Positions 33,106 through 59,254 of a stretch of DNA of 64,000 nt are shown piece by piece. The notes below the pieces were generated by a model. The model saw only the letters and a program-made list of their open reading frames with translations. It did not search any database and was not told the origin of the DNA. How positions within the stretch are numbered: the first letter of the stretch is position 1; the number at the start of each line of letters is the position of its first letter. The stretch comes from Asterias amurensis (Eukaryota > Echinodermata > Asteroidea > Forcipulatida > Asteriidae), in assembly GCF_032118995.1 (NCBI RefSeq), contig NC_092665.1, forward strand, positions 6,133,501-6,197,500, read 5' to 3'. The position numbers were made by a program, and so were the translations under genes.

Positions 33106-33109
33106 AATG

Positions 33110-33600: not shown

Positions 33601-33764
33601 CGTGATTGGTCAGAATGTGCATCAAGCGTGCCAACTGACTAATCAGCTTCTACGTAACAAAACGCAAGGCACCTTTGGTTTGGCATTATTCCTTGCTCAT
33701 GTCATGCAATCACGGGGGCTTGTTTTGACAACAAAGGGGTGCCCGACTATTATTCGTTAGTATG

Positions 33765-34370: not shown

Positions 34371-34374
34371 AGGG

Positions 34375-35125
34375 AGTCTCCTAGTGAAATTTATTACTCG
34401 ACTACTCGGGCCTCGGAGTCGCAACTTTTAAACTAGTTTTCGATGCCCAAGATGCCTTACGGCATATTGTTTGGCACAGGCGCAATGTATTAAAGTTAAC
34501 GCTGAAAGGATTGAAAGATTATGTAACTGGTGAAAAACAATCAGAGTAAATTAAGACCCTTTTCAAAACCGCGGCTGCGGCATTGGATTCGGCTTCAGGC
34601 TCTGTCATGTCTGACACCCCACGGGGCATAAGCAAAGCATGCGCAATTGTTAAAATTACCACGGGGCCAAGCTAGCCTGAGCCGAATCTAAAGTCAAAGC
34701 CGTGGTCTCGCAAAGGGCCTTTCGCTGTTGTGAATGGTCGCAAGCGATACAATAGCACTCTGCACTTATGACATCACTTTTGCTTGAAAGACCCCGGTGT
34801 CAGACAAACATTCCACTAATTTAGCAATCACGCCAAACGTGCCATATGGCACGTGTATGTAGTAGTAGTAACGCGAGTAAACATAGTGGACAAGTGTGTG
34901 TGCATATGTTGTTAGTAAAATTTTGTACGCTTGTCTGAGATCCATGTACTAAACTTGGTTTTAGCATTTAGTGCGGAGTGCTATTGGTTCACAAGCAGGT
35001 ACATTGTAGTTACGACTAAGCAGTGGCACGATAACCGAGTAGTTGAAAAATGTTTGCAACTCGACTAAGCAATCAACAGTCCCGACTTCAACAGTAGTCG
35101 CCCTAGTAGTCGTCCAGGCTCGGGT
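34375..35125 (+). mobile_element. MITE/foldback family A, copy 2
   Basis: It shares with 9560-10030 the left blocks (ATTACTCGACTACTCGG, GCATATTGTTTGGC...GCAATG, GCTGAAAGGATTGAA) and the right blocks (GAGTAGTTGAAAAATG, AACTCGACTAAGCAATCAAC, AGTAGTCG). An internal inverted pair, ACCGCGGCTGCGGCATTGGA against GTCAAAGCCGTGGTCTCG, lies at 34568-34715. It is longer than copy 1 in the middle. Confidence 0.7.
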
Positions 35126-35129
35126 CTCC

Positions 35130-35800
35130 CCGTCACTTTAAACCGTGGAAAATTTTCAGAGAGCTGGGACTGTAAAAGGAACACAAAGAAAGCAAATAGA
35201 GTTAAAAACATGCCCAAGAAGACCAAAATGTTTCAGAAACACTTTACACTGAGCAGAAAACTGACATGGACTACAGTTAGTACCAATAAATTGCAATCCC
35301 CCAGTGAAATATTTTTGCTGTGTGAAATTAAAGTTAGACATGTTTGACCGTTCCCTTTTTGATTAAGAGTTAACCAACACTCGAATCAATAGGATTTAAC
35401 CCAGTATGAACTAGCAAAAGGTATTGACCACCTGATCAAATTGAAACTCAATCAATAAGTATTGTATTATTTATTTTCTCAACAACGTGTCCACAAATAT
35501 TGAATATACTTTCAGGTAATTAAACAAATATTATTTTTTGAATAATAATATACATGTAAAATAGAACTTAGATTCGAATCATAGAAATAGAAGACCTACT
35601 CTAAGTCTTACTCTACACATTTAATACAGAGTCTCAACCACCACGAAGAAAACCCATAACAATTCCATATTTCAATCCTGCATCAAACTGCCATGTTTTG
35701 TTATTATTGATGGAAATAATTTTTGATATTATTCTTTTTTTTCTCATGAGAAATATATTTCTTCATGATTTTGTTTTCACAACGATCGTCATCAAACAAT
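35130..35800. other. No gene recognised
   Basis: AT-rich sequence. A 61-codon minus-strand frame at 35156-35341 has no family match. Confidence 0.5.
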
Positions 35801-36171
35801 CATGATAAAAAAAGAACGCTGTACGAACAGTACACAAACCAAAGCCTTTTCTTACATGATGACGTCACGTAAGCTAAAACGAAGCGGCACAAACAATGAT
35901 TTTTGCACATTTTTGGCACTGAAAAAAAATATCAACGGCAAAACCTGCAGAAGTGTATGTGGTACCAAACGAAAGAACTATCCTTCGTCTATCAGAATAT
36001 GGACTCCGTTTGTCTCAATCGTGCTCGAAACAGTCGGGGGCACCCTAAGTGTAAAGCCTATCAACAAAAAGTGTAAAACTTCAACCACATTTCAGACGAA
36101 GATTCACATGTGTTTGGTCTCGAAAATCCGGTAAAAATGGATTTGTTTTACGAGGAAAATGTTCAAGAAAC

Positions 36172-36300
36172 TTACCACTCCATGCTTGACCCCACACTGC
36201 CCTCTTGCTGGGACCTGTAGCCAATTTTGCACATCGTCTCCGAGTTCTCGCGCTGTCACGCGAAATCTCGAAGGGTCCGAGTGCGCCGCGCGACTGCAAA
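36172..36300 (-). promoter_or_regulatory. GC-rich candidate promoter and first exon
   Basis: A local GC-rich patch (GCGCGGCGCACTCGG on the minus strand) precedes an ATG that reads MCKIGYRSQQEGSVGSSME. It stops at a strong donor, GGAGTG|GTAAGTTTC, near 36174. The opposite strand has a short ATG frame MDLFYEENVQETYHSML at 36138. Neither is recognised, and no downstream exon was matched. Confidence 0.3.
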
Positions 36301-36545
36301 TGAAACCTGGAAAATATGCTAATTATCTCGCACTCTGCGCAGTGACTGTAGTTTCTCGAAAACTACTGTAGAGATGGCAAAACTGATACACCTTCCAAGT
36401 GTAGAGAGGTGTGTGGATTATCAGTGTTAATTGCCCCCCCCCTTTTCATTTTGTAATAGAACTTTGACCCTACCTTTAGAATTAATGGATCAGTCCAAGA
36501 TTGCCACATCAGCAGAGATACTCTAGACAGGATGGTGGTCTGGGC

Positions 36546-37720
36546 ATTCTGATACCAGTGATGACCAGTAACATACATTAAAGGAGTTTCTTCAAGATAT
36601 ATATCGTGACAGTGGTTTTTCATTATTTTTTACAGGTATGTTGATTTTATTTTCTTTATTAATTCCATTGTGCTTTTTAATAGAACTATCTAGATTATTG
36701 AACTTCATTATTTGATTTGTGTTATGAACTTGAGACAATGTCACTTGAAGACAGTTGGGAGTTTTCACTCCAAGGTTACAAGATCAAGAAAGGATTTGTT
36801 TCAGACTTGGAAGACAGTTGAAATGTATTTTAGAGTTTCCGTTGTTAAGTCATAATGGACAGTGATAATGATTTGATTTAGATGAAGTGAAATTGCTTTC
36901 TTTAAATACTGCTTGGACTTTATTTAGTAGTTAAAGGTTACTTTTATTTGCTAAGGTATCACTTTTCTAAGTTTGCTTTCAAGTGTTAAAGTGTACTTTA
37001 TTTGTAATATAGACATTCATTACTAGTTTCTGTTTGAAGTATTTGTTGGAAAGAACTGTAATGTTCTTTCAGATATATTTTAGTTTGGAAGTATTGTTAA
37101 CCAGTACTTTGACCGAACTCCATGTTGTAGAATATTGGTAGCCAAAGACCATTGTTTATTGGAGGTTCAAGATCTTCCTATACTAGACCACACAGTGTGA
37201 GCCCAGTGGCTCTGAAGTTGTTTATTGGGTGGTGTTGCAGTAGGGCAGGAAGTGAGATCAGTAGGCAAGAACACCTACTTTTCTTGTGCATACTTAAGTA
37301 GCTGTAGGCAAGAACACCTTTTTTTCTTGTGCATACTTAAGTAGCTGTAGGCAAGAACACCTATTTTTCTTGTGAATATTTAATTAGCTATGCCTTGATC
37401 ATTTACTGCAGGGACAAGATTGTAATGATTATAGGTTGAACACCTGTTGAAAGGAGTTATTGTGTATGCAATTAAAGGTGTTTGTTTTATGAAGTTTATT
37501 CTTTGAACCATTTTGAACCAGATTTAGAGTAAGTTTGAGTTTATTGCATTACATCTTCAGTAAAGTAAGTAAGTACATAGTTTAAAGATTGACAAGTACT
37601 TAATGTTTTGATAATGGTTTATGTAACGTGATTCTGATACCAGTGATGACCAGTAACAGACATTAAAGGAGTTTCTTCAAGATATATATCGTGACAGTGG
37701 TTTTTCATTGTTCTTTACAG
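36546..37720 (+). repeat. 1-kb segment between two 90-bp direct repeats
   Basis: ATTCTGATACCAGTGATGAC...TTTACAG at 36546-36635 recurs at 37631-37720 with only a few differences. The interval contains three tandem units of GTAGGCAAGAACACCTA(C/T)TTTT at about 37262-37385 and no recognised coding sequence. Confidence 0.85.
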
Positions 37721-37784
37721 TGGTCATCAACCCGATTTTAATGTGCTCCGTTTAGATTGCCAGTTTGGGTAATTTGGCGGGTGC

Positions 37785-37935
37785 AACACTACGTCACTTC
37801 AGAGGAAGCCATTTCTCACAATGTTTTATACTATCAACAGCTCTCCATTGCTAGCTTGTTACCAATACCAAGTACATTTGTATGCTTACAATTATTTTGA
37901 GTAATTACCAATGGTGCCCAATGCCTTAACCCGTG
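37785..37935 (+). mobile_element. TTAA-type MITE fragment (right half)
   Basis: Blocks CACTTCAGAGGAAGCCATTT, CTCACAATGTTTTATACTAT and TTGAGTAATTACCAATGGTG match the right half of the family; the left half is absent. Confidence 0.85.
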
Positions 37936-38204
37936 CTTTGAGTGGTCTGTATACCCTGCAAGATATGTTAACAAAAATTTTACCACACAGGCGAAGTAGG
38001 ATTCTACTCTACTGATTGACCTCTGTGCTTTCTGCTCTACTCCATATAGTACTGTACAAAAACCATGGTTGTACAAAACCAATGATTGCTAAAACCAACG
38101 ATTGCTAAAACCAACGGAGGGCTAGATAGGGCGCCCTCTGCCTTGTTAATCATGGATCATTGCAGAATAGCATGAGTTTTTATGACGAAAGTGTCAGAGA
38201 ATGC

Positions 38205-39345
38205 TACTCAATGCTAAAGCATAGGGACAGAATCCTACACAATGTTAAAGCAATAGGGCCAGAATCTACACAGTGCTAAAGTATAGGGGAAGAATCCTAG
38301 TTCCTACACAATGCTGAAACATAGGGGAAGAATCCTACACAGTGCTGAAGCATAGGGCCAGAATCCTACTCAATGCTAAAGCATAGGGCCAGAGTCCTAC
38401 TCAATAAGCATAGGAACAGAATCCTACACAGTGCTAAAGCATAGGGCCAGAATCCTACACAGAGCTAAATCATAGGGCCAGAATCCCACTCAATTTGCTA
38501 AAGCATAGGGCCATAATCCTACTCAATGCTAATGCATAGCGCCAGAATCCTACTCAATGCTAAAGCATTGGGCCAGAATCCTACTCAATGCTTAAAGGAA
38601 CACGTTGCCTTGAATCGGTCGAGTTGGTCTTTGAAAAGCGTTTGTAACCGTTTTTTATAAAATGTATATGGGTAGAAAGATGTTGTAAAAGTAGAATACA
38701 ATGATCCACACAAACATGCCTCGAAATAGCGTGGTTTTCCTTTTACCTCGTCGACTAACACGTCGGCCATTTATGGGGGTCAAAATTTTGACTCCCATAA
38801 ATGGCCGACAGTGTTAGTTCTCACAGTAGAAGGAAAACCACGCAATTTCAAGGCAAACTTGTGTGGATCATTGTATTCTACTTTTAAAACATCTTTTCAA
38901 CTATATGCATTATATACAAAACGGTTACAAACGCTTTTGTTTTGACCAACTCGTCCGATCCAAGGCAACGTGTTCCTTTAAGCATAGGGACAGAATCCTA
39001 CACAGTGCTAAAGCATAGGGACAGAATCCTACACAGTGCTAAAGCATAGGGACGGAATCCTACACAGTGCGAAAACATAGGGCCAGAATCCTACTCAATG
39101 CTTAAGCATAGGGCCAGAATCCTACTCAATGCTAAAGCATAGGGCCAGAATCCTACACAGTGCTTAAGCATAGGGCCAGAATCCTACACAATGCTTAAGC
39201 ATAGGGCCAGAATCCTACTCAATGCTAAAGCATAGGGCCAGAATCCTACTCAATGCTAAAGCATAGGGCCAGAATCCTACACAGTGCTAAAGCATAGGGA
39301 CAGAATCCTACACAGTGCTGAAGCATAGGGCCAGAATAAAGCATT
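38205..39345 (+). repeat. 31-bp minisatellite, interrupted by a MITE
   Basis: Units of AATGCTAAAGCATAGGGCCA-GAATCCTACTC repeat with AC/TC, CACAG/CTCAA and GCTAAAGC/GCTTAAGC variants. The 38596-38977 MITE splits it. Its right part, from 39148, is the start of the tandem duplication and recurs from 45943. Confidence 0.95.
38596..38977. mobile_element. 382-bp TTAA foldback MITE (family B)
   Basis: TTAA at 38592-38595 and 38978-38981 flanks AGGAACACGTTGCC...GGCAACGTGTTCCT. The arms pair over nearly the whole length around GACTCCCATAAATGGCCGA. Other copies are at 61187-61570 and, as right-hand fragments, at 43905-44119 and 50700-50914. Confidence 0.93.
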
Positions 39346-39519
39346 AAAGAGGAAGAACCTTAATCAATGCAATGCAAATTAAAGTCGACAAAATTAATTC
39401 AATTTAATATAAAACAGGTTTATTGAAAAAATCCATCGCAATTACAAAACTGAGTTCCACATATTAATGTCAAATAATCACATAAAAAACAAATTTAAAG
39501 GTTGCGTTTAACCATAGAG

Positions 39520-39610
39520 CTATACATATTGAATAATAATATTAATAATAATAATAATCTAAATTTATATAGCGCTAACTTGCTCTGTGTTTTGAAGCCA
39601 CCCTGGGCAC
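39520..39610 (+). repeat. LINE-tail-like segment with (TAA)n
   Basis: (TAA)n followed by CTAAATTTATATAGCGCTAA resembles the 3' end of the LINE at 3338. The duplicated copy is at 46315-46405. Confidence 0.5.
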
Positions 39611-40964
39611 AGACATGTTTGATGTGTTGCATGACTATGACACGATTTTAATTCACATTGACGCTTTTTTTTTATTTGGCGTGTGCGCTTTCGTACGCAA
39701 CTGCCCATTAGCGTCTGTCTGCGCTACGAAAACTTAAAATAGTATACATGCCTTTTAAACATGACGCAAATGACGCTCGCAGTTTGGACGCTCATCAGCA
39801 GATTGTGCGTTTACTTTTGCTGCATCTTATGGTTCGATGACACATAGAAAATAACAAATGCACTATCATGCAAATAGCCGTACAATTGCCGTACAAAATA
39901 TCAAGCTTTTTTGTATTCGTTTGTACATGATATAATGTATAATGGGGTGTTAGCGCTCTAGTCACATCAATATATATAGCTCTATGCATTTAACAGAAAT
40001 CTGTCATAATAATAGAAAGTGCTTCCAACTTTGAAATTGTTTTGAACTTGAACCTTTTTCTTGTGAGAAAATTGTCTGACCAAGGTCCTATTATGGGTGA
40101 GCATTCATTGCTCACTCAAAGTTATGTATCCCAAAAACCGTTTTTGTGTGAAAATGTATTGAACATTTTAAACAACAGTTTGTGAGAAGTAATTTGTTTG
40201 CCAAGCAAGTGTGTTTACCAACATTTTGTTGCAATTCCATGGTAGCTAAAGATTGACAGCCACTGTTGAACAATGGCAAAAGACCATCACTTGCTACAAA
40301 CTTAAATCTCCTGCCATGTTTAATTTACATGTTCACCGCAGGGTTACAGGGCACATCTCTTGAATGTCACATAATGCAGGTTTCTGTCACTAATTACTTT
40401 CTACTAGAGAGGCATAACAAGATTTTGAGATGTTAATAACACAATGATACTATGAAAAGCATTGTATGGAAAAGAGATTTAAAAAGCATTCATAAATACC
40501 TCAGACAGTTTCTCTACTCCTATTGGTGGAGAGCGCGTCACATGGGGGTGTTTAAATGGTTGATAATGACCAGTGTTTATAACTGGCTGGCCTCTGCACA
40601 AGATTATCACGCAAAATGCAATTCATAGCTATTAGAAACAGCGCGTAATCTACTTCTAAGTGCGCGCACGTAATCTATTTCTAAGCTTGCGCGCGTAAAC
40701 ACAACCCACGCACAACAGACTCTCCACAAAGGTTTTGAAAAAAATATTTCAAAACTCAAATTTTAAACGGTCAAAGTGTCTGTAATTGTATTTTTGTAAT
40801 GTTTTCTAACAAAAGGGCATTTATGATTCGGAATAAAAAAGTAGTGACTCTTTCTTAAATGTCCGTTTAAACCTTGCAGGGTCATTGCCATGCGCTCAAG
40901 ACCCTCGCCCGAGCCGATCACACGTAACAACCTGTCGCTACCCTTTTATTCCCTTATTAAAGGC

Positions 40965-41222
40965 ACTGAACACTATTGGTAATTAACTTGGTAACAGGTA
41001 ACGCTGAGCTGTTGATAGTATAAAACATTGTGAGAAATGGCTCCCTCTGAAATAACGTACTTTGTGAGACGAACAAAAATTTCTCACTCAAATATTTATT
41101 GAATTCAAGCAACTTCAACAACCGATTGAGTTCAAATTTTCACAGGTTTGTTTTTGTGTGCATTATGTTGACATACACCAAGTGAGAAGACTGGTTACCA
41201 AAGGTGTCCAGTGCCTTTAAAA
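40965..41222 (-). mobile_element. TTAA-type MITE copy in duplication copy 1
   Basis: It runs from TTAAAGGCACTGAACACTAT to GGTGTCCAGTGCCTTTAA in minus orientation with an internal deletion. The twin is at 47760-48017. Confidence 0.9.
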
Positions 41223-41379
41223 GTTACATTGAATGTTTTTGTATGCTTTATTATTATTATTTTCAACCATGACATTTGATCATTGATATCAACATCCAAA
41301 TAATATAAAAATGGTCTAGTAAGTAGCTAGGAAACTGTTTCATGTAACATACATTATAGTATAATGGACTATCATTATT

Positions 41380-41615
41380 TAAAGGCAGTGGAGACTATTG
41401 GTAATTGTCAAAGACTAGCCTTCACAGTTGGTGTATCTCAACATATGCATAAAATAACAAACCTTTTTTTCTCAAAAACTAAGGCACATCAGAGGAAGCC
41501 ATTTCTCACAATGTTTTATACTATCAACCTCTCCCCATTACTCGCCACCAAGAAAGGTTTTATGCTAATAATTGTTTTGAGTAATTATCCAATAGTTTCC
41601 ACTGCCTTTAAATAA
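41380..41615 (+). mobile_element. TTAA-type MITE copy in duplication copy 1 (short)
   Basis: The ends TTTAAAGGCAGTGGAGACTA and TAGTTTCCACTGCCTTTAAA are intact, and the middle is deleted. (TAA)n and a LINE-tail-like segment (GCGCACATATCCACCCTGC) follow at 41618-41690. Twins are at 48175-48410 and 48413-48485. Confidence 0.9.
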
Positions 41616-42244
41616 TAATAATAATAGTAATAATAAGACTTAAAATGCGCACATATCCACCCTGCTGGGTGTTCAAGGCGCATAAAATGATTGAGTTTTT
41701 TAAACGCGTTTTACATAAGTACAAAATAAACATTTTTTAACATTAACTGCAATTTGAACATACTGTATTTTGTAGTATTCATGTCAAAAGTAACATTTTG
41801 ACATGGGTATGTGATTTTTGTTTATACTTTTGCTGTTTTCCCCAAATATGAAATGAGGTTTCTGTCCCACAATATTTAAAAGCTGTAGAGACTATGCAGT
41901 ATGCATGAGAACTTTTACTGACAACTGGTCTGATACTCTTGTGTACCACCAGGGGGACTGTAGCCTTCATTGCTTCATAGATCCGCATTCAAAATGACTG
42001 GATTTTTTACCAGCCTGCAAATATCCCCTTCCAGGCGCTTCGAATCACGGCTATACCAAACTAGTGTCTAAGCCACGAAGGCCTTGACAAAAGGCTAGTG
42101 GGGCGGAGGAGTAGTTGCATTATTTCATGGTAGTCCAGCACTGCTTGAAGGTTGGTTTCTACATTTATACCTGCAGTTGGATATAATAAAGGAAAAATAT
42201 GGGTGAATGAATGAATGAGTGGATAGATAGACGGATGAGTGCAT

Positions 42245-42730
42245 GTAACTCAGAAATAAAATATCAATAATTTTGTTATTTATTAATTTAACTATTTATT
42301 TGCTTATCTAATTTCTGGTTTATTGATTATTTGTTTATCAATTGATTGGTTGTTTTGATTGCTTTATTCATATTTAATCATCCTTTTATTGATGTAAAGG
42401 TATTTATGTTAGAAAAGGAGTTAGTTTGATTAACTTTTCGTTGCTTGCGTTGTTATTTTATCAATTTGTTGACCTATTTTTTGTTTATCCATCCATATTT
42501 TGATTTATTTGTTGCTATATTTCTTGTTACATGTACCTTTCCAACTATTTATTCATTTACTTATTGTTACTTTTTGTTTACATTTTTTAATTAACAATTT
42601 GGTTATTTATTTATTTATTTGCTTGTCTAATTTCTGGTGTTTGTTTTTGGTTTTGTTGTTTCAAGTTGTGCTTTTGTGTATACAGATTATTTATATTTAC
42701 TTTTAATTGTTTTTATTTTTCCAAAGAGAG
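42245..42730 (+). other. AT-rich low-complexity stretch
   Basis: Degenerate TTATTTATT-type sequence. The leucine/isoleucine-rich frames of 65-68 codons come from base bias. The twin is at 49040-49525. Confidence 0.7.
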
Positions 42731-42839
42731 TATATAATATAGTGAGTTTGCCTCCCTATGTGAGTGGATTAACAGGAGTTCGAGCTACAGAGTGTTTAAT
42801 TATACTTTTGTTGATCCTGCCCCCAATTTCCTGAAGCGT

Positions 42840-43880
42840 TTATAAACCATGATTTCTGAGTACACACTTTTAAGGTTTGTAAACCATGATTTCTGAGTGC
42901 ACATTTTTTATGATTTGTAAACCAAGATTTGTGAGTACACGTTTTTATGGTTTATAAACCATGATTTGTGAGTGCCAAATTTATGGTTTTTAACCATGAT
43001 TTGTGAGTGCGCATTTTTTAAGGTTTATAAACCATGGTTTGTGAGTGCACACTTTCATGGTTTGTAAACCATGATTTCTGAGTGCACATTTTTTATGGTT
43101 TGTAAACCATGATTTGTGAGTGCACGTTTTTATGGTTTATAAACCATGATTTGTGAGTGCACACTTTTATGGTTTGTAAACCATGATTTGTGAGTGCAAA
43201 TTTTTTATGGTTTGTAAACCATGATTTGTAAGTGCACATTTTTTTTATGGTTTACAAACAACGTTTTTGAGATGTTTTTTAAGAAATCTCGACTTTCATG
43301 GTTTATAAACCATGTTTTTTAAGAAGTCTCGATTTTAATGGTTTACAAACCATGATCACAAACCATGATTTTATGGTTCATTTGTTATGGTTTATAAGCC
43401 ATGATTTGTAAACCAAGATTTTTATTCTTCAATTTTCATGGTTTATAAACCATATTTTTTAGATGTCTCAATTTTCATGGTTTATAAACCATGATCACAA
43501 ACCATGATTTTATGGTTCATTTGTTATGGTTTATAAACCATGATTTGTAAACCAAGATTTTTATTCTTCAATTTTCATGGTTTATAAACCATATTTTTTA
43601 GATGTCTCAATTTTCATGGTTTATAAACCATGATTTGTAAACCATGAATTTGATGCTTCATTTTTTATGGTTTATAAACCATGTTTTTAAGATGCGTAAA
43701 TTTTCTTGGTTTATGAACCACGATTTGTAAATGTTTTTTGTATGTTCATGGTTTGTAAATCACAAACTTATACACAACAAACACTTTACTGGTATGTAAA
43801 CCATAACAGGATTTGGCAACAGTTTCTATGGTTTACATCTAATTGCTGTAAACCATGGTAAAAACATGCCTTAAAAGTGT
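42840..43880 (+). repeat. Palindromic minisatellite, copy 1
   Basis: Roughly 25-30 units of about 35-40 bp are centred on ATGGTTTATAAACCAT or ATGGTTTGTAAACCAT, with spacers such as GATTTGTGAGTGCACATTTT. Nearly every unit can fold on itself. It ends against the right half of a family-B MITE. Confidence 0.93.
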
Positions 43881-43904
43881 CAAACAATTAATGGACAAAC
43901 GGCG

Positions 43905-44119
43905 CCCCATAACTAACACGGTCGGCCATTTTTGGGAGTCAAATTTTTAGTGTTAGTTCGCACAGTAAAAGGAAAATCACGCAAATTCGAAGCAAACTTG
44001 TGTGGATCATTGTATTCTACTTTTAAAACATCTTTCCAACCATATGCATTTTATAAAAAACGGTTACAAACGCTTTTAATAGACCAACTCGTCCGATCCA
44101 AGGCAACGTGTTCCTTTAA
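43905..44119 (+). mobile_element. Family-B MITE fragment (copy 1)
   Basis: From CTAACACGGTCGGCCATTTT to GGCAACGTGTTCCTTTAA it matches the right arm of 38596-38977. The 63-codon frame in it is an artefact. The twin is at 50700-50914. Confidence 0.88.
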
Positions 44120-44319
44120 GTAAGTTAAGTATCTGATATAAAATAATTGACGTTGATCATTTAACAATTTGAGAGTGACCAGTTAAGACCACCGTGCACA
44201 AAATCAACTTCTTACCGAGAAAAGATGTCCATCAATGTTTCGGATCGGCATCATAAATCACCAGATCCGCGTCAAAACTAGCTGTAGACGACGCTTGCTT
44301 GCGACGACGGCGGACGAGA

Positions 44320-44356
44320 GCATGCAGTGTACATCATGTTCATGTACACTGCATGC
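44320..44356. promoter_or_regulatory. Perfect 15-bp stem palindrome upstream of the RING gene
   Basis: GCATGCAGTGTACAT, a 7-base loop, then ATGTACACTGCATGC, about 330 bp upstream of the ATG. It could be a cruciform or a dimer-binding site; no factor is assigned. Nearby are GAGTA repeats at 44441-44466. The identical twin is at 51115-51151. Confidence 0.6.
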
Positions 44357-44686
44357 GTGTATGTGTATGGTAAGGTGTATGTTGGTACTCAGTTATTTTT
44401 GCATTGGCTTAACACAGCGACGTGAAGAGTACCAGTTGTATAGTGAGTAGAGTAGAGTAGAGTAGAATCCTACTCGTACATGTACCATAGGAAATCTGTT
44501 CACATATCTTGCACCAATTGGTGGTCTGTGGCAATACACTGCGCAAATTAAATTCGATAGCGCAAACTTGAACTTGTAAGAAATCAACATTGCGCGCCAA
44601 TTTTATAAGCGCGTTTTTAACAAAATTCAAACACTGTAATACTATCTTACAATATTCGTGCAACAGCAAGTTGTACAACATCGGAC

Positions 44687-45604
44687 ATGTCGTCCGTAGA
44701 ATTTGCTCTTTCTTCCCACTTTGCCAGTCAACTGGAATGTGTAATTTGTATGGGAAAGTTGGTTGTGCCTAAACCTCTCACATGTGGGCATACATTTTGT
44801 CTGGGATGTCTGGACGAAATCCTGGACGACAACGAACCTAGAATCGTCTGTCCCTTGTGTCGTGATGTGACCATTGTTCCATCAGAAGGAGTAGATGGGC
44901 TGACTACGAATTTTGCTCTGCAGAGCCTTCTGGAGTCACTCAACCTGAATGCCGATGAAGTGGATGAACCAGAAGACGAGGAGAATGAGAGCACTCCGAA
45001 ATCGGGCGAAGTAGAGGATGGTGAGTTGACAATGTGTGATTTGCACAAGGAAAAAATGAAGTTTTACTGCTCCACTTGTGAGCTTCTGATATGCCGTGAC
45101 TGCACTGTGGTCGACCAACCAAGACCAGACCACAAGTGTACCAATCTTGATGAGGCATACACTTGGAGGCAGCAGATCAATCAGAAGGAGTTACAGCTCG
45201 CCAAGGGGCTGATCAAGCTCACCAAGAAGTCGAGAGGGGTCCTTCTTGCCACAGTGGAGAATCTATATCAACGCTGCGACCAGGTGATTAACGAGATAGA
45301 GGTGCGTCGCCAGGAGGGAATGAAGATGCTCAACAACAAAGATGCCCTTATCAAGGAGTATCAGTGCAGTCTTGAAGAGCACACTCAAGACCTACTTGAC
45401 CTGACCCAACATGCTAAAGGTACCACCAAGATCGACGTTCTGGATCAATCCAAAAGTCTCGTGGAAACATTGTCATCTTATAGAGACAAACGACATGTGA
45501 TGCTCGACACCCCGAGCAAGGTGCAGTACCCTATGTTTGTCGGGGCTGAGGAGGAAGTTCAAGGCTGGCCAAGACCGAGTGGTCCCAGAAAAGGTAATGC
45601 TTAG
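44687..45604 (+). CDS. RING/B-box/coiled-coil protein (TRIM-type E3 ligase), copy 1
   Basis: The open frame gives 305 residues and no intron is needed. A C3HC4 RING lies at 18-58 (C18, C21, C33, H35, C38, C41, C55, C58), the E2-binding module of ubiquitin ligases. A B-box 2 lies at 117-149 (C117, H120, C128, C131, C136, C139, H149). In relatives I remember, the CRDCTVVD motif is followed by His; here it is Q144, so one zinc ligand may be missing. Residues 155-265 look coiled-coil. There is no NHL, SPRY or filamin domain. The stop is TAG at 45602-45604, but the same frame stays open beyond it into an Arg/Gly-rich tail. In this copy the tail is cut by the duplication junction at 45942. The start is the first ATG of the frame, before the RING. 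Confidence 0.92.
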   Translation: MSSVEFALSSHFASQLECVICMGKLVVPKPLTCGHTFCLGCLDEILDDNEPRIVCPLCRDVTIVPSEGVDGLTTNFALQSLLESLNLNADEVDEPEDEENESTPKSGEVEDGELTMCDLHKEKMKFYCSTCELLICRDCTVVDQPRPDHKCTNLDEAYTWRQQINQKELQLAKGLIKLTKKSRGVLLATVENLYQRCDQVINEIEVRRQEGMKMLNNKDALIKEYQCSLEEHTQDLLDLTQHAKGTTKIDVLDQSKSLVETLSSYRDKRHVMLDTPSKVQYPMFVGAEEEVQGWPRPSGPRKGNA

Positions 45605-45689
45605 CCAAAAAATAAGAAAAAATGTAGTCAAGAAAAAACAAGTGAAGCAGAAACTGACAGTACAAAAGGCCCAAATCTCGCTTCGGGAG
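45594..45689 (+). other. Possible 96-nt frame-preserving intron with the TAG stop
   Basis: AAAAG|GTAATG at 45593/45594 and CGCTTCGGGAG| at 45689 bound 96 nt, exactly 32 codons. Removing it deletes the TAG and joins RK to GGMKGGN in frame. The acceptor tract is modest. The identical segment in copy 2 is 52389-52484. Confidence 0.4.
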
Positions 45690-46030
45690 GTGGTATGAAA
45701 GGCGGGAACGTACCCCAAGCCACATACCCCCCTCTACCGCTGATGTATATGCAACAAACATCGGTGCCTGGTGGAGTATCTGGTGAGCCACATAGAGGAG
45801 GAGGAGGAGGAGGAGGAAGAGGAGGAAAGAGTCACAGAGGAGGTCAAGGTCACAGAGGTGGGAATCAAGGTCAGGGAGGTCAAGGACAAAAGAGAGGAGG
45901 AGGTGGTCGTGGGGGTCAAGGTGGTGAAAATCAAAGAGGGCGGAATCCTACACAGTGCTTAAGCATAGGGCCAGAATCCTACACAATGCTTAAGCATAGG
46001 GCCAGAATCCTACTCAATGCTAAAGCATAG
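45605..46030 (+). CDS. Truncated RGG tail of copy 1 fused to minisatellite
   Basis: In the frame of the RING gene, sequence after the TAG encodes a lysine-rich stretch, YPPLPLMYMQQ, then Gly/Arg/Gln-rich repeats to GGENQRGR. At 45942/45943 it runs into the 31-bp minisatellite and ends 29 codons later at 46030. This chimeric end is a product of the duplication. Without the natural 3' end this copy probably has altered mRNA processing. Confidence 0.7.
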   Translation, partial: PKNKKKCSQEKTSEAETDSTKGPNLASGGGMKGGNVPQATYPPLPLMYMQQTSVPGGVSGEPHRGGGGGGGRGGKSHRGGQGHRGGNQGQGGQGQKRGGGGRGGQGGENQRGRNPTQCLSIGPESYTMLKHRARILLNAKA

Positions 46031-46314
46031 GGCCAGAATCCTACTCAATGCTAAAGCATAGGGCCAGAATCCTACACAGTGCTAAAGCATAGGGACAGAA
46101 TCCTACACAGTGCTGAAGCATAGGGCCAGAATAAAGCATTAAAGAGGAAGAACCTTAATCAATGCAATGCAAATTAAAGTCGACAAAATTAATTCAATTT
46201 AATATAAAACAGGTTTATTGAAAAAATCCATCGCAATTACAAAACTGAGTTCCACATATTAATGTCAAATAATCACATAAAAAACAAATTTAAAGGTTGC
46301 GTTTAACCATAGAG

Positions 46315-48490
46315 CTATACATATTGAATAATAATATTAATAATAATAATAATCTAAATTTATATAGCGCTAACTTGCTCTGTGTTTTGAAGCCACCCTG
46401 GGCACAGACATGTTTGATGTGTTGCATGACTATGACACGATTTTAATTCACATTGACGCTTTTTTTTTATTTGGCGTGTGCGCTTTCGTACGCAACTGCC
46501 CATTAGCGTCTGTCTGCGCTACGAAAACTTAAAATAGTATACATGCCTTTTAAACATGACGCAAATGACGCTCGCAGTTTGGACGCTCATCAGCAGATTG
46601 TGCGTTTACTTTTGCTGCATCTTATGGTTCGATGACACATAGAAAATAACAAATGCACTATCATGCAAATAGCCGTACAATTGCCGTACAAAATATCAAG
46701 CTTTTTTGTATTCGTTTGTACATGATATAATGTATAATGGGGTGTTAGCGCTCTAGTCACATCAATATATATAGCTCTATGCATTTAACAGAAATCTGTC
46801 ATAATAATAGAAAGTGCTTCCAACTTTGAAATTGTTTTGAACTTGAACCTTTTTCTTGTGAGAAAATTGTCTGACCAAGGTCCTATTATGGGTGAGCATT
46901 CATTGCTCACTCAAAGTTATGTATCCCAAAAACCGTTTTTGTGTGAAAATGTATTGAACATTTTAAACAACAGTTTGTGAGAAGTAATTTGTTTGCCAAG
47001 CAAGTGTGTTTACCAACATTTTGTTGCAATTCCATGGTAGCTAAAGATTGACAGCCACTGTTGAACAATGGCAAAAGACCATCACTTGCTACAAACTTAA
47101 ATCTCCTGCCATGTTTAATTTACATGTTCACCGCAGGGTTACAGGGCACATCTCTTGAATGTCACATAATGCAGGTTTCTGTCACTAATTACTTTCTACT
47201 AGAGAGGCATAACAAGATTTTGAGATGTTAATAACACAATGATACTATGAAAAGCATTGTATGGAAAAGAGATTTAAAAAGCATTCATAAATACCTCAGA
47301 CAGTTTCTCTACTCCTATTGGTGGAGAGCGCGTCACATGGGGGTGTTTAAATGGTTGATAATGACCAGTGTTTATAACTGGCTGGCCTCTGCACAAGATT
47401 ATCACGCAAAATGCAATTCATAGCTATTAGAAACAGCGCGTAATCTACTTCTAAGTGCGCGCACGTAATCTATTTCTAAGCTTGCGCGCGTAAACACAAC
47501 CCACGCACAACAGACTCTCCACAAAGGTTTTGAAAAAAATATTTCAAAACTCAAATTTTAAACGGTCAAAGTGTCTGTAATTGTATTTTTGTAATGTTTT
47601 CTAACAAAAGGGCATTTATGATTCGGAATAAAAAAGTAGTGACTCTTTCTTAAATGTCCGTTTAAACCTTGCAGGGTCATTGCCATGCGCTCAAGACCCT
47701 CGCCCGAGCCGATCACACGTAACAACCTGTCGCTACCCTTTTATTCCCTTATTAAAGGCACTGAACACTATTGGTAATTAACTTGGTAACAGGTAACGCT
47801 GAGCTGTTGATAGTATAAAACATTGTGAGAAATGGCTCCCTCTGAAATAACGTACTTTGTGAGACGAACAAAAATTTCTCACTCAAATATTTATTGAATT
47901 CAAGCAACTTCAACAACCGATTGAGTTCAAATTTTCACAGGTTTGTTTTTGTGTGCATTATGTTGACATACACCAAGTGAGAAGACTGGTTACCAAAGGT
48001 GTCCAGTGCCTTTAAAAGTTACATTGAATGTTTTTGTATGCTTTATTATTATTATTTTCAACCATGACATTTGATCATTGATATCAACATCCAAATAATA
48101 TAAAAATGGTCTAGTAAGTAGCTAGGAAACTGTTTCATGTAACATACATTATAGTATAATGGACTATCATTATTTAAAGGCAGTGGAGACTATTGGTAAT
48201 TGTCAAAGACTAGCCTTCACAGTTGGTGTATCTCAACATATGCATAAAATAACAAACCTTTTTTTCTCAAAAACTAAGGCACATCAGAGGAAGCCATTTC
48301 TCACAATGTTTTATACTATCAACCTCTCCCCATTACTCGCCACCAAGAAAGGTTTTATGCTAATAATTGTTTTGAGTAATTATCCAATAGTTTCCACTGC
48401 CTTTAAATAATAATAATAATAGTAATAATAAGACTTAAAATGCGCACATATCCACCCTGCTGGGTGTTCAAGGCGCATAAAATGATTGAG
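46315..48490 (+). repeat. Twin repeats in duplication copy 2
   Basis: LINE-tail-like segment 46315-46405, TTAA-type MITEs 47760-48017 (minus) and 48175-48410 (plus), and a LINE-tail-like segment 48413-48485. All match copy 1 at an offset of 6,795 bp. Between 46410 and 47755 no gene is recognised, as in copy 1 (39615-40960). Confidence 0.9.
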
Positions 48491-49634
48491 TTTTTTAAAC
48501 GCGTTTTACATAAGTACAAAATAAACATTTTTTAACATTAACTGCAATTTGAACATACTGTATTTTGTAGTATTCATGTCAAAAGTAACATTTTGACATG
48601 GGTATGTGATTTTTGTTTATACTTTTGCTGTTTTCCCCAAATATGAAATGAGGTTTCTGTCCCACAATATTTAAAAGCTGTAGAGACTATGCAGTATGCA
48701 TGAGAACTTTTACTGACAACTGGTCTGATACTCTTGTGTACCACCAGGGGGACTGTAGCCTTCATTGCTTCATAGATCCGCATTCAAAATGACTGGATTT
48801 TTTACCAGCCTGCAAATATCCCCTTCCAGGCGCTTCGAATCACGGCTATACCAAACTAGTGTCTAAGCCACGAAGGCCTTGACAAAAGGCTAGTGGGGCG
48901 GAGGAGTAGTTGCATTATTTCATGGTAGTCCAGCACTGCTTGAAGGTTGGTTTCTACATTTATACCTGCAGTTGGATATAATAAAGGAAAAATATGGGTG
49001 AATGAATGAATGAGTGGATAGATAGACGGATGAGTGCATGTAACTCAGAAATAAAATATCAATAATTTTGTTATTTATTAATTTAACTATTTATTTGCTT
49101 ATCTAATTTCTGGTTTATTGATTATTTGTTTATCAATTGATTGGTTGTTTTGATTGCTTTATTCATATTTAATCATCCTTTTATTGATGTAAAGGTATTT
49201 ATGTTAGAAAAGGAGTTAGTTTGATTAACTTTTCGTTGCTTGCGTTGTTATTTTATCAATTTGTTGACCTATTTTTTGTTTATCCATCCATATTTTGATT
49301 TATTTGTTGCTATATTTCTTGTTACATGTACCTTTCCAACTATTTATTCATTTACTTATTGTTACTTTTTGTTTACATTTTTTAATTAACAATTTGGTTA
49401 TTTATTTATTTATTTGCTTGTCTAATTTCTGGTGTTTGTTTTTGGTTTTGTTGTTTCAAGTTGTGCTTTTGTGTATACAGATTATTTATATTTACTTTTA
49501 ATTGTTTTTATTTTTCCAAAGAGAGTATATAATATAGTGAGTTTGCCTCCCTATGTGAGTGGATTAACAGGAGTTCGAGCTACAGAGTGTTTAATTATAC
49601 TTTTGTTGATCCTGCCCCCAATTTCCTGAAGCGT

Positions 49635-50675
49635 TTATAAACCATGATTTCTGAGTACACACTTTTAAGGTTTGTAAACCATGATTTCTGAGTGCACATT
49701 TTTTATGATTTGTAAACCAAGATTTGTGAGTACACGTTTTTATGGTTTATAAACCATGATTTGTGAGTGCCAAATTTATGGTTTTTAACCATGATTTGTG
49801 AGTGCGCATTTTTTAAGGTTTATAAACCATGGTTTGTGAGTGCACACTTTCATGGTTTGTAAACCATGATTTCTGAGTGCACATTTTTTATGGTTTGTAA
49901 ACCATGATTTGTGAGTGCACGTTTTTATGGTTTATAAACCATGATTTGTGAGTGCACACTTTTATGGTTTGTAAACCATGATTTGTGAGTGCAAATTTTT
50001 TATGGTTTGTAAACCATGATTTGTAAGTGCACATTTTTTTTATGGTTTACAAACAACGTTTTTGAGATGTTTTTTAAGAAATCTCGACTTTCATGGTTTA
50101 TAAACCATGTTTTTTAAGAAGTCTCGATTTTAATGGTTTACAAACCATGATCACAAACCATGATTTTATGGTTCATTTGTTATGGTTTATAAGCCATGAT
50201 TTGTAAACCAAGATTTTTATTCTTCAATTTTCATGGTTTATAAACCATATTTTTTAGATGTCTCAATTTTCATGGTTTATAAACCATGATCACAAACCAT
50301 GATTTTATGGTTCATTTGTTATGGTTTATAAACCATGATTTGTAAACCAAGATTTTTATTCTTCAATTTTCATGGTTTATAAACCATATTTTTTAGATGT
50401 CTCAATTTTCATGGTTTATAAACCATGATTTGTAAACCATGAATTTGATGCTTCATTTTTTATGGTTTATAAACCATGTTTTTAAGATGCGTAAATTTTC
50501 TTGGTTTATGAACCACGATTTGTAAATGTTTTTTGTATGTTCATGGTTTGTAAATCACAAACTTATACACAACAAACACTTTACTGGTATGTAAACCATA
50601 ACAGGATTTGGCAACAGTTTCTATGGTTTACATCTAATTGCTGTAAACCATGGTAAAAACATGCCTTAAAAGTGT
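49635..50675 (+). repeat. Palindromic minisatellite, copy 2
   Basis: Twin of 42840-43880 with the same unit order. A fast-mutating array with no copy-number change argues that the duplication is very recent or an assembly artefact. Confidence 0.93.
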
Positions 50676-50699
50676 CAAACAATTAATGGACAAACGGCG

Positions 50700-50914
50700 C
50701 CCCATAACTAACACGGTCGGCCATTTTTGGGAGTCAAATTTTTAGTGTTAGTTCGCACAGTAAAAGGAAAATCACGCAAATTCGAAGCAAACTTGTGTGG
50801 ATCATTGTATTCTACTTTTAAAACATCTTTCCAACCATATGCATTTTATAAAAAACGGTTACAAACGCTTTTAATAGACCAACTCGTCCGATCCAAGGCA
50901 ACGTGTTCCTTTAA
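50700..50914 (+). mobile_element. Family-B MITE fragment (copy 2)
   Basis: Twin of 43905-44119, ending GGCAACGTGTTCCTTTAA. Confidence 0.88.
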
Positions 50915-51481
50915 GTAAGTTAAGTATCTGATATAAAATAATTGACGTTGATCATTTAACAATTTGAGAGTGACCAGTTAAGACCACCGTGCACAAAATC
51001 AACTTCTTACCGAGAAAAGATGTCCATCAATGTTTCGGATCGGCATCATAAATCACCAGATCCGCGTCAAAACTAGCTGTAGACGACGCTTGCTTGCGAC
51101 GACGGCGGACGAGAGCATGCAGTGTACATCATGTTCATGTACACTGCATGCGTGTATGTGTATGGTAAGGTGTATGTTGGTACTCAGTTATTTTTGCATT
51201 GGCTTAACACAGCGACGTGAAGAGTACCAGTTGTATAGTGAGTAGAGTAGAGTAGAGTAGAATCCTACTCGTACATGTACCATAGGAAATCTGTTCACAT
51301 ATCTTGCACCAATTGGTGGTCTGTGGCAATACACTGCGCAAATTAAATTCGATAGCGCAAACTTGAACTTGTAAGAAATCAACATTGCGCGCCAATTTTA
51401 TAAGCGCGTTTTTAACAAAATTCAAACACTGTAATACTATCTTACAATATTCGTGCAACAGCAAGTTGTACAACATCGGAC

Positions 51482-52399
51482 ATGTCGTCCGTAGAATTTG
51501 CTCTTTCTTCCCACTTTGCCAGTCAACTGGAATGTGTAATTTGTATGGGAAAGTTGGTTGTGCCTAAACCTCTCACATGTGGGCATACATTTTGTCTGGG
51601 ATGTCTGGACGAAATCCTGGACGACAACGAACCTAGAATCGTCTGTCCCTTGTGTCGTGATGTGACCATTGTTCCATCAGAAGGAGTAGATGGGCTGACT
51701 ACGAATTTTGCTCTGCAGAGCCTTCTGGAGTCACTCAACCTGAATGCCGATGAAGTGGATGAACCAGAAGACGAGGAGAATGAGAGCACTCCGAAATCGG
51801 GCGAAGTAGAGGATGGTGAGTTGACAATGTGTGATTTGCACAAGGAAAAAATGAAGTTTTACTGCTCCACTTGTGAGCTTCTGATATGCCGTGACTGCAC
51901 TGTGGTCGACCAACCAAGACCAGACCACAAGTGTACCAATCTTGATGAGGCATACACTTGGAGGCAGCAGATCAATCAGAAGGAGTTACAGCTCGCCAAG
52001 GGGCTGATCAAGCTCACCAAGAAGTCGAGAGGGGTCCTTCTTGCCACAGTGGAGAATCTATATCAACGCTGCGACCAGGTGATTAACGAGATAGAGGTGC
52101 GTCGCCAGGAGGGAATGAAGATGCTCAACAACAAAGATGCCCTTATCAAGGAGTATCAGTGCAGTCTTGAAGAGCACACTCAAGACCTACTTGACCTGAC
52201 CCAACATGCTAAAGGTACCACCAAGATCGACGTTCTGGATCAATCCAAAAGTCTCGTGGAAACATTGTCATCTTATAGAGACAAACGACATGTGATGCTC
52301 GACACCCCGAGCAAGGTGCAGTACCCTATGTTTGTCGGGGCTGAGGAGGAAGTTCAAGGCTGGCCAAGACCGAGTGGTCCCAGAAAAGGTAATGCTTAG
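51482..52399 (+). CDS. RING/B-box/coiled-coil protein (TRIM-type E3 ligase), copy 2
   Basis: Its translation is the same 305 residues as copy 1, with the C3HC4 RING, the B-box 2 with Q at position 144, and the coiled coil. Its upstream 2.3 kb, including the palindrome at 51115, is also duplicated, so both copies have the same proximal promoter. The stop is TAG at 52397-52399 and the frame continues open to 52798. This copy keeps the natural C-terminal frame and 3' flank, so it is the better candidate for the functional gene. A role as a ubiquitin ligase is inferred from the RING; no substrate can be named. Confidence 0.92.
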   Translation: MSSVEFALSSHFASQLECVICMGKLVVPKPLTCGHTFCLGCLDEILDDNEPRIVCPLCRDVTIVPSEGVDGLTTNFALQSLLESLNLNADEVDEPEDEENESTPKSGEVEDGELTMCDLHKEKMKFYCSTCELLICRDCTVVDQPRPDHKCTNLDEAYTWRQQINQKELQLAKGLIKLTKKSRGVLLATVENLYQRCDQVINEIEVRRQEGMKMLNNKDALIKEYQCSLEEHTQDLLDLTQHAKGTTKIDVLDQSKSLVETLSSYRDKRHVMLDTPSKVQYPMFVGAEEEVQGWPRPSGPRKGNA

Positions 52400-52798
52400 C
52401 CAAAAAATAAGAAAAAATGTAGTCAAGAAAAAACAAGTGAAGCAGAAACTGACAGTACAAAAGGCCCAAATCTCGCTTCGGGAGGTGGTATGAAAGGCGG
52501 GAACGTACCCCAAGCCACATACCCCCCTCTACCGCTGATGTATATGCAACAAACATCGGTGCCTGGTGGAGTATCTGGTGAGCCACATAGAGGAGGAGGA
52601 GGAGGAGGAGGAAGAGGAGGAAAGAGTCACAGAGGAGGTCAAGGTCACAGAGGTGGGAATCAAGGTCAGGGAGGTCAAGGACAAAAGAGAGGAGGAGGTG
52701 GTCGTGGGGGTCAAGGTGGTGAAAATCAAAGAGGGCGGGGAGGTCAAGCTGGGAATAAAGGTCGTGGCATTGGACACCAAAAGAATAAAATATTTTGA
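52400..52798 (+). CDS. Complete Arg/Gly-rich C-terminal frame of copy 2
   Basis: After the TAG, 132 further codons stay open in the frame of the RING gene. They encode PKNKKKCSQEK, an acidic/serine stretch, YPPLPLMYMQQ, then RGG/GGQ-type repeats (GEPHRGG, GGQGHRGG, GGGGRGGQGG) and a basic end GHQKNKIF with TGA. RGG-rich tails bind RNA in other proteins. Translation would need splicing of 52389-52484, stop readthrough, or separate initiation at the ATG at 52490. Confidence 0.6.
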   Translation, partial: PKNKKKCSQEKTSEAETDSTKGPNLASGGGMKGGNVPQATYPPLPLMYMQQTSVPGGVSGEPHRGGGGGGGRGGKSHRGGQGHRGGNQGQGGQGQKRGGGGRGGQGGENQRGRGGQAGNKGRGIGHQKNKIF

Positions 52799-52847
52799 AA
52801 GTGAAAATGCCAAATGTACATAATGCATCGCAGATAGTTTATTGATT

Positions 52848-53398
52848 AAAGTCACCTGGAAGTGGTATTTTTTCAAAATAAAGCTTTTGTCACTAATATG
52901 TGTTTTGATGAGTGGAATGTGAATAAACAGTTAACTAAGGTTTAAAAAAAATCAGTTCTTATGTTATTTACAAATATAAGAGTAGACCCCGACCCGAGAG
53001 GGTGCTGTTCGTGACGTCAATCGAGGCAGACTTTGCCTGTAATGCGTAGAGTAAACACAATTGCAAAGTACATGTACGGACCAAGTCGTGAGTTTGTACG
53101 TTTCAATGCCGACCAGGTGTATTGCTGCTTAATGCAGAAAAACACTTTTTTAAATGTACCAACTCGCGACTTGGACGTACATGTATTTTGCACGTGTGTT
53201 TACTATACGCATTGCAGGCAAAGTCTGCCTCGATTGAGGTCACAAAAGGGGTAGGCGGAGTCAGCCCCCCGAAATACTTTATATATTTTTTAAACATATA
53301 AATTGTGAGAAACAATTACTAAAAAAATTGTTTTATTGTTCGTAAGCATATACTCTTGTGTTTGAAAGGAAAAAAAAAAATAAAAATTCCAGGTGAGT
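52848..53398. mobile_element. MITE with AGTCACCTGGAA ends, containing a palindrome
   Basis: The left end AAAGTCACCTGGAAGTGG and right end AAAATTCCAGGTGAG are inverted. The core 53010-53260 is a foldback: CAATCGAGGCAGACTTTGCC with GGCAAAGTCTGCCTCGATTG, and GTACATGTACGGACCAAGTC with ACTTGGACGTACATGT. The right flank block matches 7297-7386 in reverse. Confidence 0.8.
52877..52882 (+). terminator. Poly(A) signal AATAAA downstream of RING gene copy 2
   Basis: AATAAA lies 79 bp after the stop of the RGG frame and is followed by a GT-rich TGTGTTTTGATGAGTGG. It is inside the left end of the 52848 MITE and outside the duplicated unit, so copy 1 lacks it. Confidence 0.55.
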
Positions 53399-53399
53399 T

Positions 53400-53990
53400 A
53401 AAAAAAAAATTTCATGTCGAGAATTAACGTTTAAGAAATTAGTTTTGTTGCGCATTTAATTTAAATTGCCAATTCCAATTAGTTTCGGAATTAAGGTGCT
53501 CAAAAGTGGCGTGGAACCCCCCTTCAAGTGCGAGTGATTCGCGCCGTTGAATATTTTTATGTTTTGATAAAAGTTTTAATTTACAGCATGTACATTGTGT
53601 TTGCGAAGAATGCACATGTCATGAACGTATCTTTTAAATATCTTCTTAGAAATAATTAACATTATTCATTATTGGGCGTTTCATGCCAAGCTGTCAATCA
53701 CCCTAGACTCAAGCTTCAGATTGTCTGGGGTATTTATAAATTGATATTTGTTTCTTTGGTTAATATTATTAAACAAGCAAAGTTGTCTTTGATTTTAAAA
53801 ACATTTTTGGCACATATTTGCTGAAATTGTTTGATGCAGCTTCATTTTTTTCAGTATAAATAAGAATTTTAAGTTTGATATATAGTATAACTCTTTCCTT
53901 GCTATCTCTGTCCAACATGTAAAATAAGTTTAAGTTTGAAAAATAGTATAATAGATATTAAATTTGCATCGGGGATAAAGAATATTAATT
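53400..53990. other. No gene recognised
   Basis: AT-rich sequence with no coding match or clear repeat. Confidence 0.5.
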
Positions 53991-53995
53991 TTGTG

Positions 53996-54211
53996 TTTTT
54001 ACCCATATACACTGATGTGGGTTACCCGAGTTCTGTGAAAAAATCACAGGCATATGATAAAAGCAGTGTCATGGCAACTAGTTGGTATGACACTGATTTA
54101 GAATTGCAATGGTCGTTGGTTCGAATCCCACCTGAGTAATATTTTTTTCACAGAACTCGGGTAAATACTGGGTATGCAGTGCTAAAACACACATCGGGGT
54201 ATATGGGTTCC
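53996..54211 (+). mobile_element. MITE with tRNA-like core, copy 2
   Basis: The ends are TTTTTACCCATATACACTGA and ACATCGGGGTATATGGG. The core has the B-box GGTTCGAATCC at 54118-54128 and the inverted pair ACCCGAGTTCTGTGAAAA / TTTTCACAGAACTCGGGTAA. It is the plus-orientation relative of 5458-5778. Confidence 0.75.
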
Positions 54212-54214
54212 CCA

Positions 54215-54370
54215 CCCCCCCCAAAAAAAAAAAAAAATAAATAAATAAATACCCCCCCCCCCAAAAAAAAAAAAAGTATATATATATATATATATAAAAA
54301 CAATATATATGTACAAATAATATTAATAGTAATAATAATAATAATAATATTAATAATAATAATACTCCCC
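54215..54370 (+). repeat. Poly-C/poly-A, (AT)n and (TAA)n microsatellites
   Basis: A compound simple repeat: C-runs followed by A-runs, TATATATATATA at 54277-54294, and TAATAATAA at 54320-54364. Minus-strand frames across it are artefacts. Confidence 0.9.
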
Positions 54371-54984
54371 AGGGAGCTGAGAAACATTAAAAAGGGACTG
54401 TTATTGGTCCTATGACCAGGGCACTCAGTAAGCGCATTGATACGGTTATTGTGAAATACGCTAAATAAGAATTTGTTATTATTATTATTATTAAAAAAGA
54501 GTAAAAATAAAATAAAATAAAATAACAAGATAAACTATTATATTCGTCCCATAAGTTTGAGTTACGAGTGTTACTGTATATACCAGCCAAATCAGTAAAA
54601 TATTGCGTTAGTTAATGCATGTATTAAAGAAGCCTTCAAAAAAGTGTTATTGTATTAAAGAAGCCTTCAAAAAAAGTGTTATTAAATGAGTGTTGTAAGA
54701 AGAGTTCTTTTTAAAGCAAAATATATCGTCGCTCTTTACGAACCAACAAAACAGCCACTTCAGATGAAATATGGGTTACGAGAAAATCGGGTTTTACGAA
54801 ATGGGAGTATTGAAACGCTAAATTTTAGAGGTTTATACTCACAATTTCTTGCAAAAATTTCCAGGATGGTTGCAAAGGGTTTACTTTTAACAGAACACGT
54901 GAATATTTTATCGGTACTTTAGTTTGAATTGAGATAATCAAAAGTAATTAACTCTTTCGGTTCGTAAAAGCATTTTTTACTGTG

Positions 54985-55255
54985 CACGCAATCTATTAGA
55001 TTGAATTGTCAATCTTTCACAGATTGCCGTTGGGGTACAATCTGTCCGGATTGAAAATCAATCTTTATTTAGAGTGAAAATTTTCAATCTAAAACGATTG
55101 GAATTTCAAACTATTAGATTGAATATTTCAATAAATTTTCAATCGAATTTGGATTGAAAAAAATTCAATCTTGACTGAGATTGAACTATTTCAATCTAAT
55201 AGTTTGAAATGTTCAATCATTAAAAGATTGAAAATTCTCAGTCCAAATCAGTATT
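54985..55255. repeat. Cluster of TTTCAATC/GATTGAAA motifs, left
   Basis: About 20 copies of CAATCT, TTCAATC or their complements lie in 270 bp, often as inverted pairs (AGATTGAAATAG-like around 55195). A matching cluster is at 59055-59230. Such subterminal motif clusters are typical of DNA transposon ends. Confidence 0.65.
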
Positions 55256-55489
55256 GGAAGTCAACATACACAAGTTGTACAATTTAACAAAAATTCCATG
55301 TCCACAGAACAGTATTCTTAATTCAATGCATTGTTGCTTTAATTCAATTCAATTCGATTCAGTACATTAAACTCAATAAATACATTCAATTCAAGTAACA
55401 CAGTAAATTACAATTAAGTTTAGGCAGTCCCCAGCTATTAATTGCTTGAAATGGGTTAATGATCTTGATTAATTACTTAGGCCCAATTT

Positions 55490-55640
55490 CATAAAGCTGC
55501 TTAGACAACGAATTGCTTAACAGTTTTCTGCGTAGCAAAATTGTACAGGGTACCAGTAAAAAATGGTACATGTGCGATGGTTTCTTTGCTGGAAACCACG
55601 ATTTTGCTGTGCTAAGCTACTTTTCACTGACTTCACTTAA
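55490..55640 (+). mobile_element. Foldback MITE fragment related to 19668-19927
   Basis: GGCCCAATTTCATAAAGCTG, CAGGGTACCAGTAAAAAATG and the later GGAAACCACGATTTTGCTG follow the order of the GGGCCCAATTTCAT family. The right terminus is lost. Confidence 0.6.
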
Positions 55641-56162
55641 TTCAATTTCAGTAAAAAAAACTCCCCTCAGTTTTGAACTGTTCTAAGTCCAATACTTTTA
55701 TATTACCAAATAAATATTTCTCATGTTAAGCTCCAAAAAGATCATTTCGACAAACTCTTTTTGAGGAATAGTTTAAACAGGGAGTAGGGGATGAACAAAA
55801 CAATTAAAAGCTCCCATGTTGATGCTCGCTCTGTACACAAATTGTAGTGAGCATTTTGTTGCAATAATTTAAACAAATAATAGATTAAAACAAAATGTTC
55901 ATCGTTTACCTTTTTGAACCAACCTATGCCCCAAACCATTTTACTTTTATTCTCAATCCCATTGGCCACAACACAATAGTAAAATAATATTATTAAAAAG
56001 TTCAAAATTCTAAAAATTGAAGATTATTTTTCCAAAAAAATCATGTTTTAATTATACACTCTCAGCAGTTCCAACAAACGTTAATGAGTCAATAATGCAG
56101 GGTTTTAACTTGTTTTATTGAGGTCTTGAGTACTTTAAGGAGGCTTATCACTACACCAAACA

Positions 56163-59230: not shown

Positions 59231-59254
59231 TTAAGTACGGAAGCTTAAAGTGAC

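Follow-up and report, generated by a model that had tools for sequence, protein, structure and literature searches.

Background

TRIM (RBCC) proteins that lack a specific C-terminal domain (class V) are described in PMC3137616 as a mixed group, some members of which were born by domain loss. The gene analysed here lies in a 64,000-nt stretch of Asterias amurensis DNA (the window), and like the class V genes it combines a RING and a B-box with no NHL or B30.2 domain seen downstream. It differs from them in carrying a Gly/Arg-rich tail beyond its stop codon. An RBCC protein with an RGG tail did not appear in the titles and abstract openings of the few papers retrieved on TRIM, C-terminal RGG and RNA-binding E3s. 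Searches joining TRIM, sea star and RGG, or naming Asterias rubens TRIM56, found nothing, and by title none of the literature retrieved for expansion of the tripartite motif family in echinoderms was on topic.

Exitrons, as they are defined in PMC4484396, are introns with a length of 3n that lie within coding exons, have weak splice sites and are by definition free of stop codons. A would-be 3n intron within a coding exon, again with weak splice sites, can be drawn at the present locus, but this 96-nt segment holds a TAG in the gene frame. Because of that TAG the name exitron as given in that source does not fit, and the segment would instead count as a conventional intron that is alternatively retained. 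Readthrough genes of metazoans and this locus share an open, coding-like extension past the stop; what the locus lacks is a CARYYA or UGA-CUA context and a stable structure. The readthrough types distinguished in PMC4132726 comprise UAG-CARYYA, UGA-G with a pseudoknot and UGA-CGG or -CUA, the CARYYA motif being tied in that source to UAG readthrough in plant viruses, and leakage is reported in PMC5100048 to be affected by the base 3' of the stop.

Results

A TRIM-type reading frame

The first gene copy is an ORF of 305 codons on the plus strand (44687-45604) that ends at TAG 45602-45604, and a second copy (51482-52399, plus strand) is 100% identical to it and ends at the same TAG (52397-52399). 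Both defining domains exceed their Pfam cut-offs, the RING (PF00097) with 33.9 bits against 21 and the B-box (PF00643) with 31.3 bits against 24.1. What we take to be the zinc-ligand pattern of a C3HC4 RING is intact at residues 18-58, as is the presumed B-box ligand pattern at residues 117-151. The closest solved relatives in a phmmer search are TRIM3 (E 2.4e-22, covering ORF residues 16-226), TRIM2 (9e-18) and TRIM56 (2.4e-13), and with its RING and B-box the ORF encodes a TRIM-type protein. Behind the B-box a coiled coil is likely, as helices are predicted at residues 154-175, 180-245 and 249-271 by a single-sequence fold of low confidence (mean pLDDT 44.7); a PDB search with residues 167-305 alone (E up to 1) matched no TRIM. 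The frame of RING, B-box and coiled coil that the earlier note had drawn up to the TAG at 45602-45604 is thus borne out for the ORF and for both zinc-binding domains, and its coiled coil is predicted at low confidence.

Relatives of the gene were also sought more widely. A tblastn search of the window (E up to 1) with the RBCC protein or the tail found nothing beyond the two copies, and a search of viral contigs for RBCC relatives with six peptide patterns matched 10 stretches, none of which was confirmed. No Pfam family (E up to 0.01) was matched in the three plus-strand frames of 45944-51483 and 52800-62302, which is the basis for the statement that no NHL or B30.2 domain is seen downstream.

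An exact tandem repeat carries both copies

Both gene copies lie within a direct tandem repeat, the first unit of which (39148-45943, plus strand) contains copy 1 and the second (45943-52738) copy 2. The units are 6,796 nt long at an offset of 6,795 and differ by 0 mismatches, which places their divergence below about 4.4e-4 (95%, from zero differences). The identity extends through several tandem-repeat arrays with periods of up to 139 nt, and arrays of such kind change fast. The start of the repeat falls within a 31-nt minisatellite (38980-39337) and its end within the Gly/Arg-rich tail, the junction being a single shared base; past this breakpoint the minisatellite (45943-46132, plus strand) replaces the end of copy 1's tail. 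The repeat either arose by duplication very recently or was produced by the assembly, and the near absence of junction homology would argue against a simple overlap misjoin. Since the repeat is exact, arrays included, the TAG was copied along with it, and since both genes lie in the same exact unit the TAG counts once. The second copy, which the earlier note also cited, is not an independent case, and the presence of the TAG in both copies lends no independent support to a function of this codon.

The remainder of the window contains matches as expected of an animal genome. These include alkaline phosphatase exons (PF00245) on the minus strand at 2024-2347 (E 6.8e-13) and 11721-11996 (E 9.8e-21), and a reverse transcriptase fragment (PF00078, E 1.1e-08) on the plus strand at 62300-62842 that is presumably part of a retroelement. 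These three matches came from a sample of 10 ORFs compared with Pfam, through which the minus strand and the other parts of the window were covered by sampling only; in the three plus-strand frames of 30900-39142, Pfam matching with E up to 0.01 gave no family. Several other repeats are present. Six tandem copies of a roughly 1-kb unit occupy 24171-30428; compared across a 300-nt part, five of them are 99-100% alike and the sixth 77%. An inverted repeat (6205-6983 and 7778-8556) has arms of 779 nt that are 98% complementary. A dispersed element of about 120 nt occurs at 38591-38710, 38862-38982, 44001-44120, 50796-50915, 61184-61304 and 61456-61571, as inverted pairs at 38.6-39.0 kb and 61.2-61.6 kb and as a single copy upstream of each gene copy; its literal sequence string had no match in the literature. 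A minus-strand Rfam tRNA match at 5552-5625 (34.2 bits, cut-off 29) is absent from the ARAGORN output and is perhaps a tRNA-derived repeat.

A Gly/Arg-rich tail in the same frame

Past the TAG the frame of the RBCC ORF stays open in both copies, as had been claimed. In copy 2 the tail (52400-52798, plus strand) runs for 132 codons to its own TGA at 52796-52798, and an AATAAA polyadenylation-type signal follows on the same strand at 52877-52882, 79 nt past the TGA; further AATAAA or ATTAAA motifs near the tail end lie at 52754, 52784, 52845 and 52922. In copy 1 the frame is open for 141 codons, of which 113 are native tail (45605-45943, plus strand), cut at the duplication breakpoint, and the rest are minisatellite, so that copy 2 presumably retains the longer, native tail end. 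The strong Gly/Arg bias that had been noted is also confirmed, with 42 Gly, 9 RG and 7 RGG clustered in frame as an RGG box among the 132 residues of copy 2, although neither Pfam nor the PDB held a match to the tail.

An open frame of 132 codons was reached by 0.225% of 20,000 order-1 Markov sequences, and the +1 frame likewise has just 2 stops across this stretch; by itself the openness of the tail is moderately informative. A stronger indication comes from codon pairs that differ by one base in the RGG part of copy 2 (52589-52795), where the synonymous fraction is 0.559 in the gene frame versus 0.235 and 0.068 in the other two. Of 2000 Markov sequences per order, none at order 1, 2 at order 2 and 3 at order 3 attained this value in their best frame. 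These comparisons support a present or recent coding function of the RGG part in the frame of the RBCC ORF, and this part looks to have been shaped by selection on the protein. The linker of 62 codons between the TAG and the RGG part is open in 3.2% of Markov sequences, which is modestly informative, and its synonymous fractions (0.241, 0.256 and 0.137 by frame) carry no frame-specific signal. As the RBCC ORF itself gives 0.220, 0.174 and 0.205, a slight signal at most, the test is informative for low-complexity sequence and hardly so for the linker.

This in-frame coding signal weighs against the weakest of the accounts of the TAG, namely that it is an old, true terminator followed by a 3' untranslated or separately initiated downstream ORF: an in-frame ATG (MKGGN...) does stand as the 31st codon past the TAG, but the RGG protein-level signal sits exactly in the frame of the upstream ORF, and we regard this account as extremely improbable.

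A candidate 96-nt intron around the stop codon

The earlier note had proposed that the TAG lies in an alternative intron, so that spliced transcripts would encode an RBCC-RGG protein and retained ones the RBCC part alone. The GT-AG segment in question (45594-45689, plus strand; 52389-52484 in copy 2, identical and used for scoring) is indeed 96 nt long and contains the TAG, and its removal, tested on copy 2, keeps the frame open to the TGA. A search with donors from 52200-52398 and acceptors to about 52650 yielded 347 GT-AG pairs of 60-350 nt that span the TAG, of which 109 excise it without shifting or closing the frame. Among these 109 the candidate scores best, mainly by virtue of its 5' site (AAG|GTAATG, in the top 1.3% of plus-strand GTs). 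What we take to be a branch-point-like motif, CTGAC, begins 35 nt upstream of the acceptor.

The rank of the candidate lost its weight as support for an intron when the same scoring was applied elsewhere, because in-frame pairs of equal or better score turned up at about 45% of the window's control positions (591 of 1324) and at 28 of 62 inside the ORF. The controls overlap, being spaced at 40 nt in the window and 10 nt in the ORF, and those in the window exclude the first copy of the repeat as well as the gene regions; scoring used generic, approximate matrices. On this measure the splice sites are no better than chance pairs. The 3' site (GAG) is equalled by 0.307 of the plus-strand AGs in the window, the 20 nt before the acceptor contain 55% pyrimidines with no pyrimidine run longer than 4 in the last 40 nt, and two other AGs (ending at 52455 and 52463) intervene between CTGAC and the acceptor. 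The open frame between the TAG and the acceptor was dropped as evidence, since these 28 codons are open in 30% of Markov sequences and the +1 frame is stop-free there as well.

Composition also tells against an intron. The segment contains 45 A and 15 T in 96 nt, and its T fraction of 0.156 is close to the 0.153 of the tail beyond it; as few T occur in 5 of 900 other 96-nt windows (plus strand, outside repeats, exons not filtered out), and in none of the 900 together with as many A. With a single stop in the gene frame, the segment resembles coding sequence of the tail more closely than it does an intron. We therefore consider a stop-removing alternative intron quite unlikely: of the interpretation first offered, the coding-like RGG part in the RBCC frame survives, and the splice switch does not rise above chance.

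Origin of the stop codon

The account that we favour, with somewhat better than even confidence, is that an RBCC-RGG gene was truncated by a recent nonsense change and then duplicated. The ancestral coding region would have been one open stretch encoding the RING, the B-box, probably a coiled coil and the RGG tail as far as the TGA at 52796-52798. Truncation would then have come from a change that placed TAG immediately behind codon 305, as a fixed or common allele, and any mRNA made today would either be degraded or encode an RBCC protein that lacks the tail. As the change would be recent, the frame of the tail would still be open and coding-like. A 6.8-kb tandem duplication would later have copied the truncated gene, its breakpoint also cutting the tail of copy 1.

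This account is favoured by the tail that stays open to a TGA with a polyadenylation-type signal behind it, by the synonymous signal of the RGG part in the gene frame and the tail-like T fraction of the 96-nt segment, and by the exact repeat that carried the TAG along and the intact RING and B-box ligands. Inferred beyond these observations are the derived state of the TAG, its age, the sequence of events and the absence of any recoding or splicing that brings the tail back. Some considerations weigh on the other side. The TAG may be old, a stop-free tail also fits ongoing translation of the tail, and the frame between TAG and acceptor is uninformative; the linker, modestly informative in its openness, carries no frame-specific synonymous signal.

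A different possibility is that the TAG is an assembly base error or a rare allele, the usual gene encoding the full RBCC-RGG protein. Only one codon parts the two forms, one wrong base may have been written twice into identical repeat copies, and a run of six A starts two bases past the TAG. Assembly errors at A runs are, however, more often length errors, and the TAG is explained by a substitution, unlike the errors to be expected at such a run. We hold an error or rare allele to be decidedly improbable.

Programmed or leaky readthrough of the TAG, which would append the RGG tail to some of the protein made, likewise accords with a tail that is open to its own stop and coding-like in its RGG part. 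The C that follows the stop, a weaker leakage feature, is the one point of the stop's context in favour. The UAG is nevertheless followed by CCAAAA instead of CARYYA, and none of the types UAG-CARYYA, UGA-G with pseudoknot and UGA-CGG or -CUA fits this stop. Downstream structure was equally unremarkable, as the 119 nt from the TAG fold with a z of 0.33, matched or bettered by 121 of 200 shuffles, so that neither a known leaky context nor a stable 3' structure is found here. Readthrough is accordingly given a low standing, as a highly improbable account.

Discussion

If the truncation that we favour is a simple one, the locus offers a snapshot of a TRIM gene in the course of losing its C-terminal part, copied in that state by an exact tandem duplication. 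Such a loss would be ordinary in the TRIM family, which PMC3137616 describes as known for losses. A TRIM-type E3 with an RGG tail that is toggled at one stop, whether by an in-frame alternative intron or by readthrough, is unlikely overall. Were a splice or recoding switch of this kind true, it would represent an unusual coupling of an E3 module to an RGG tail, through which one gene would provide both an E3 targeted to RNA or condensates and one that is not. The RBCC-RGG architecture at full length has some interest of its own.
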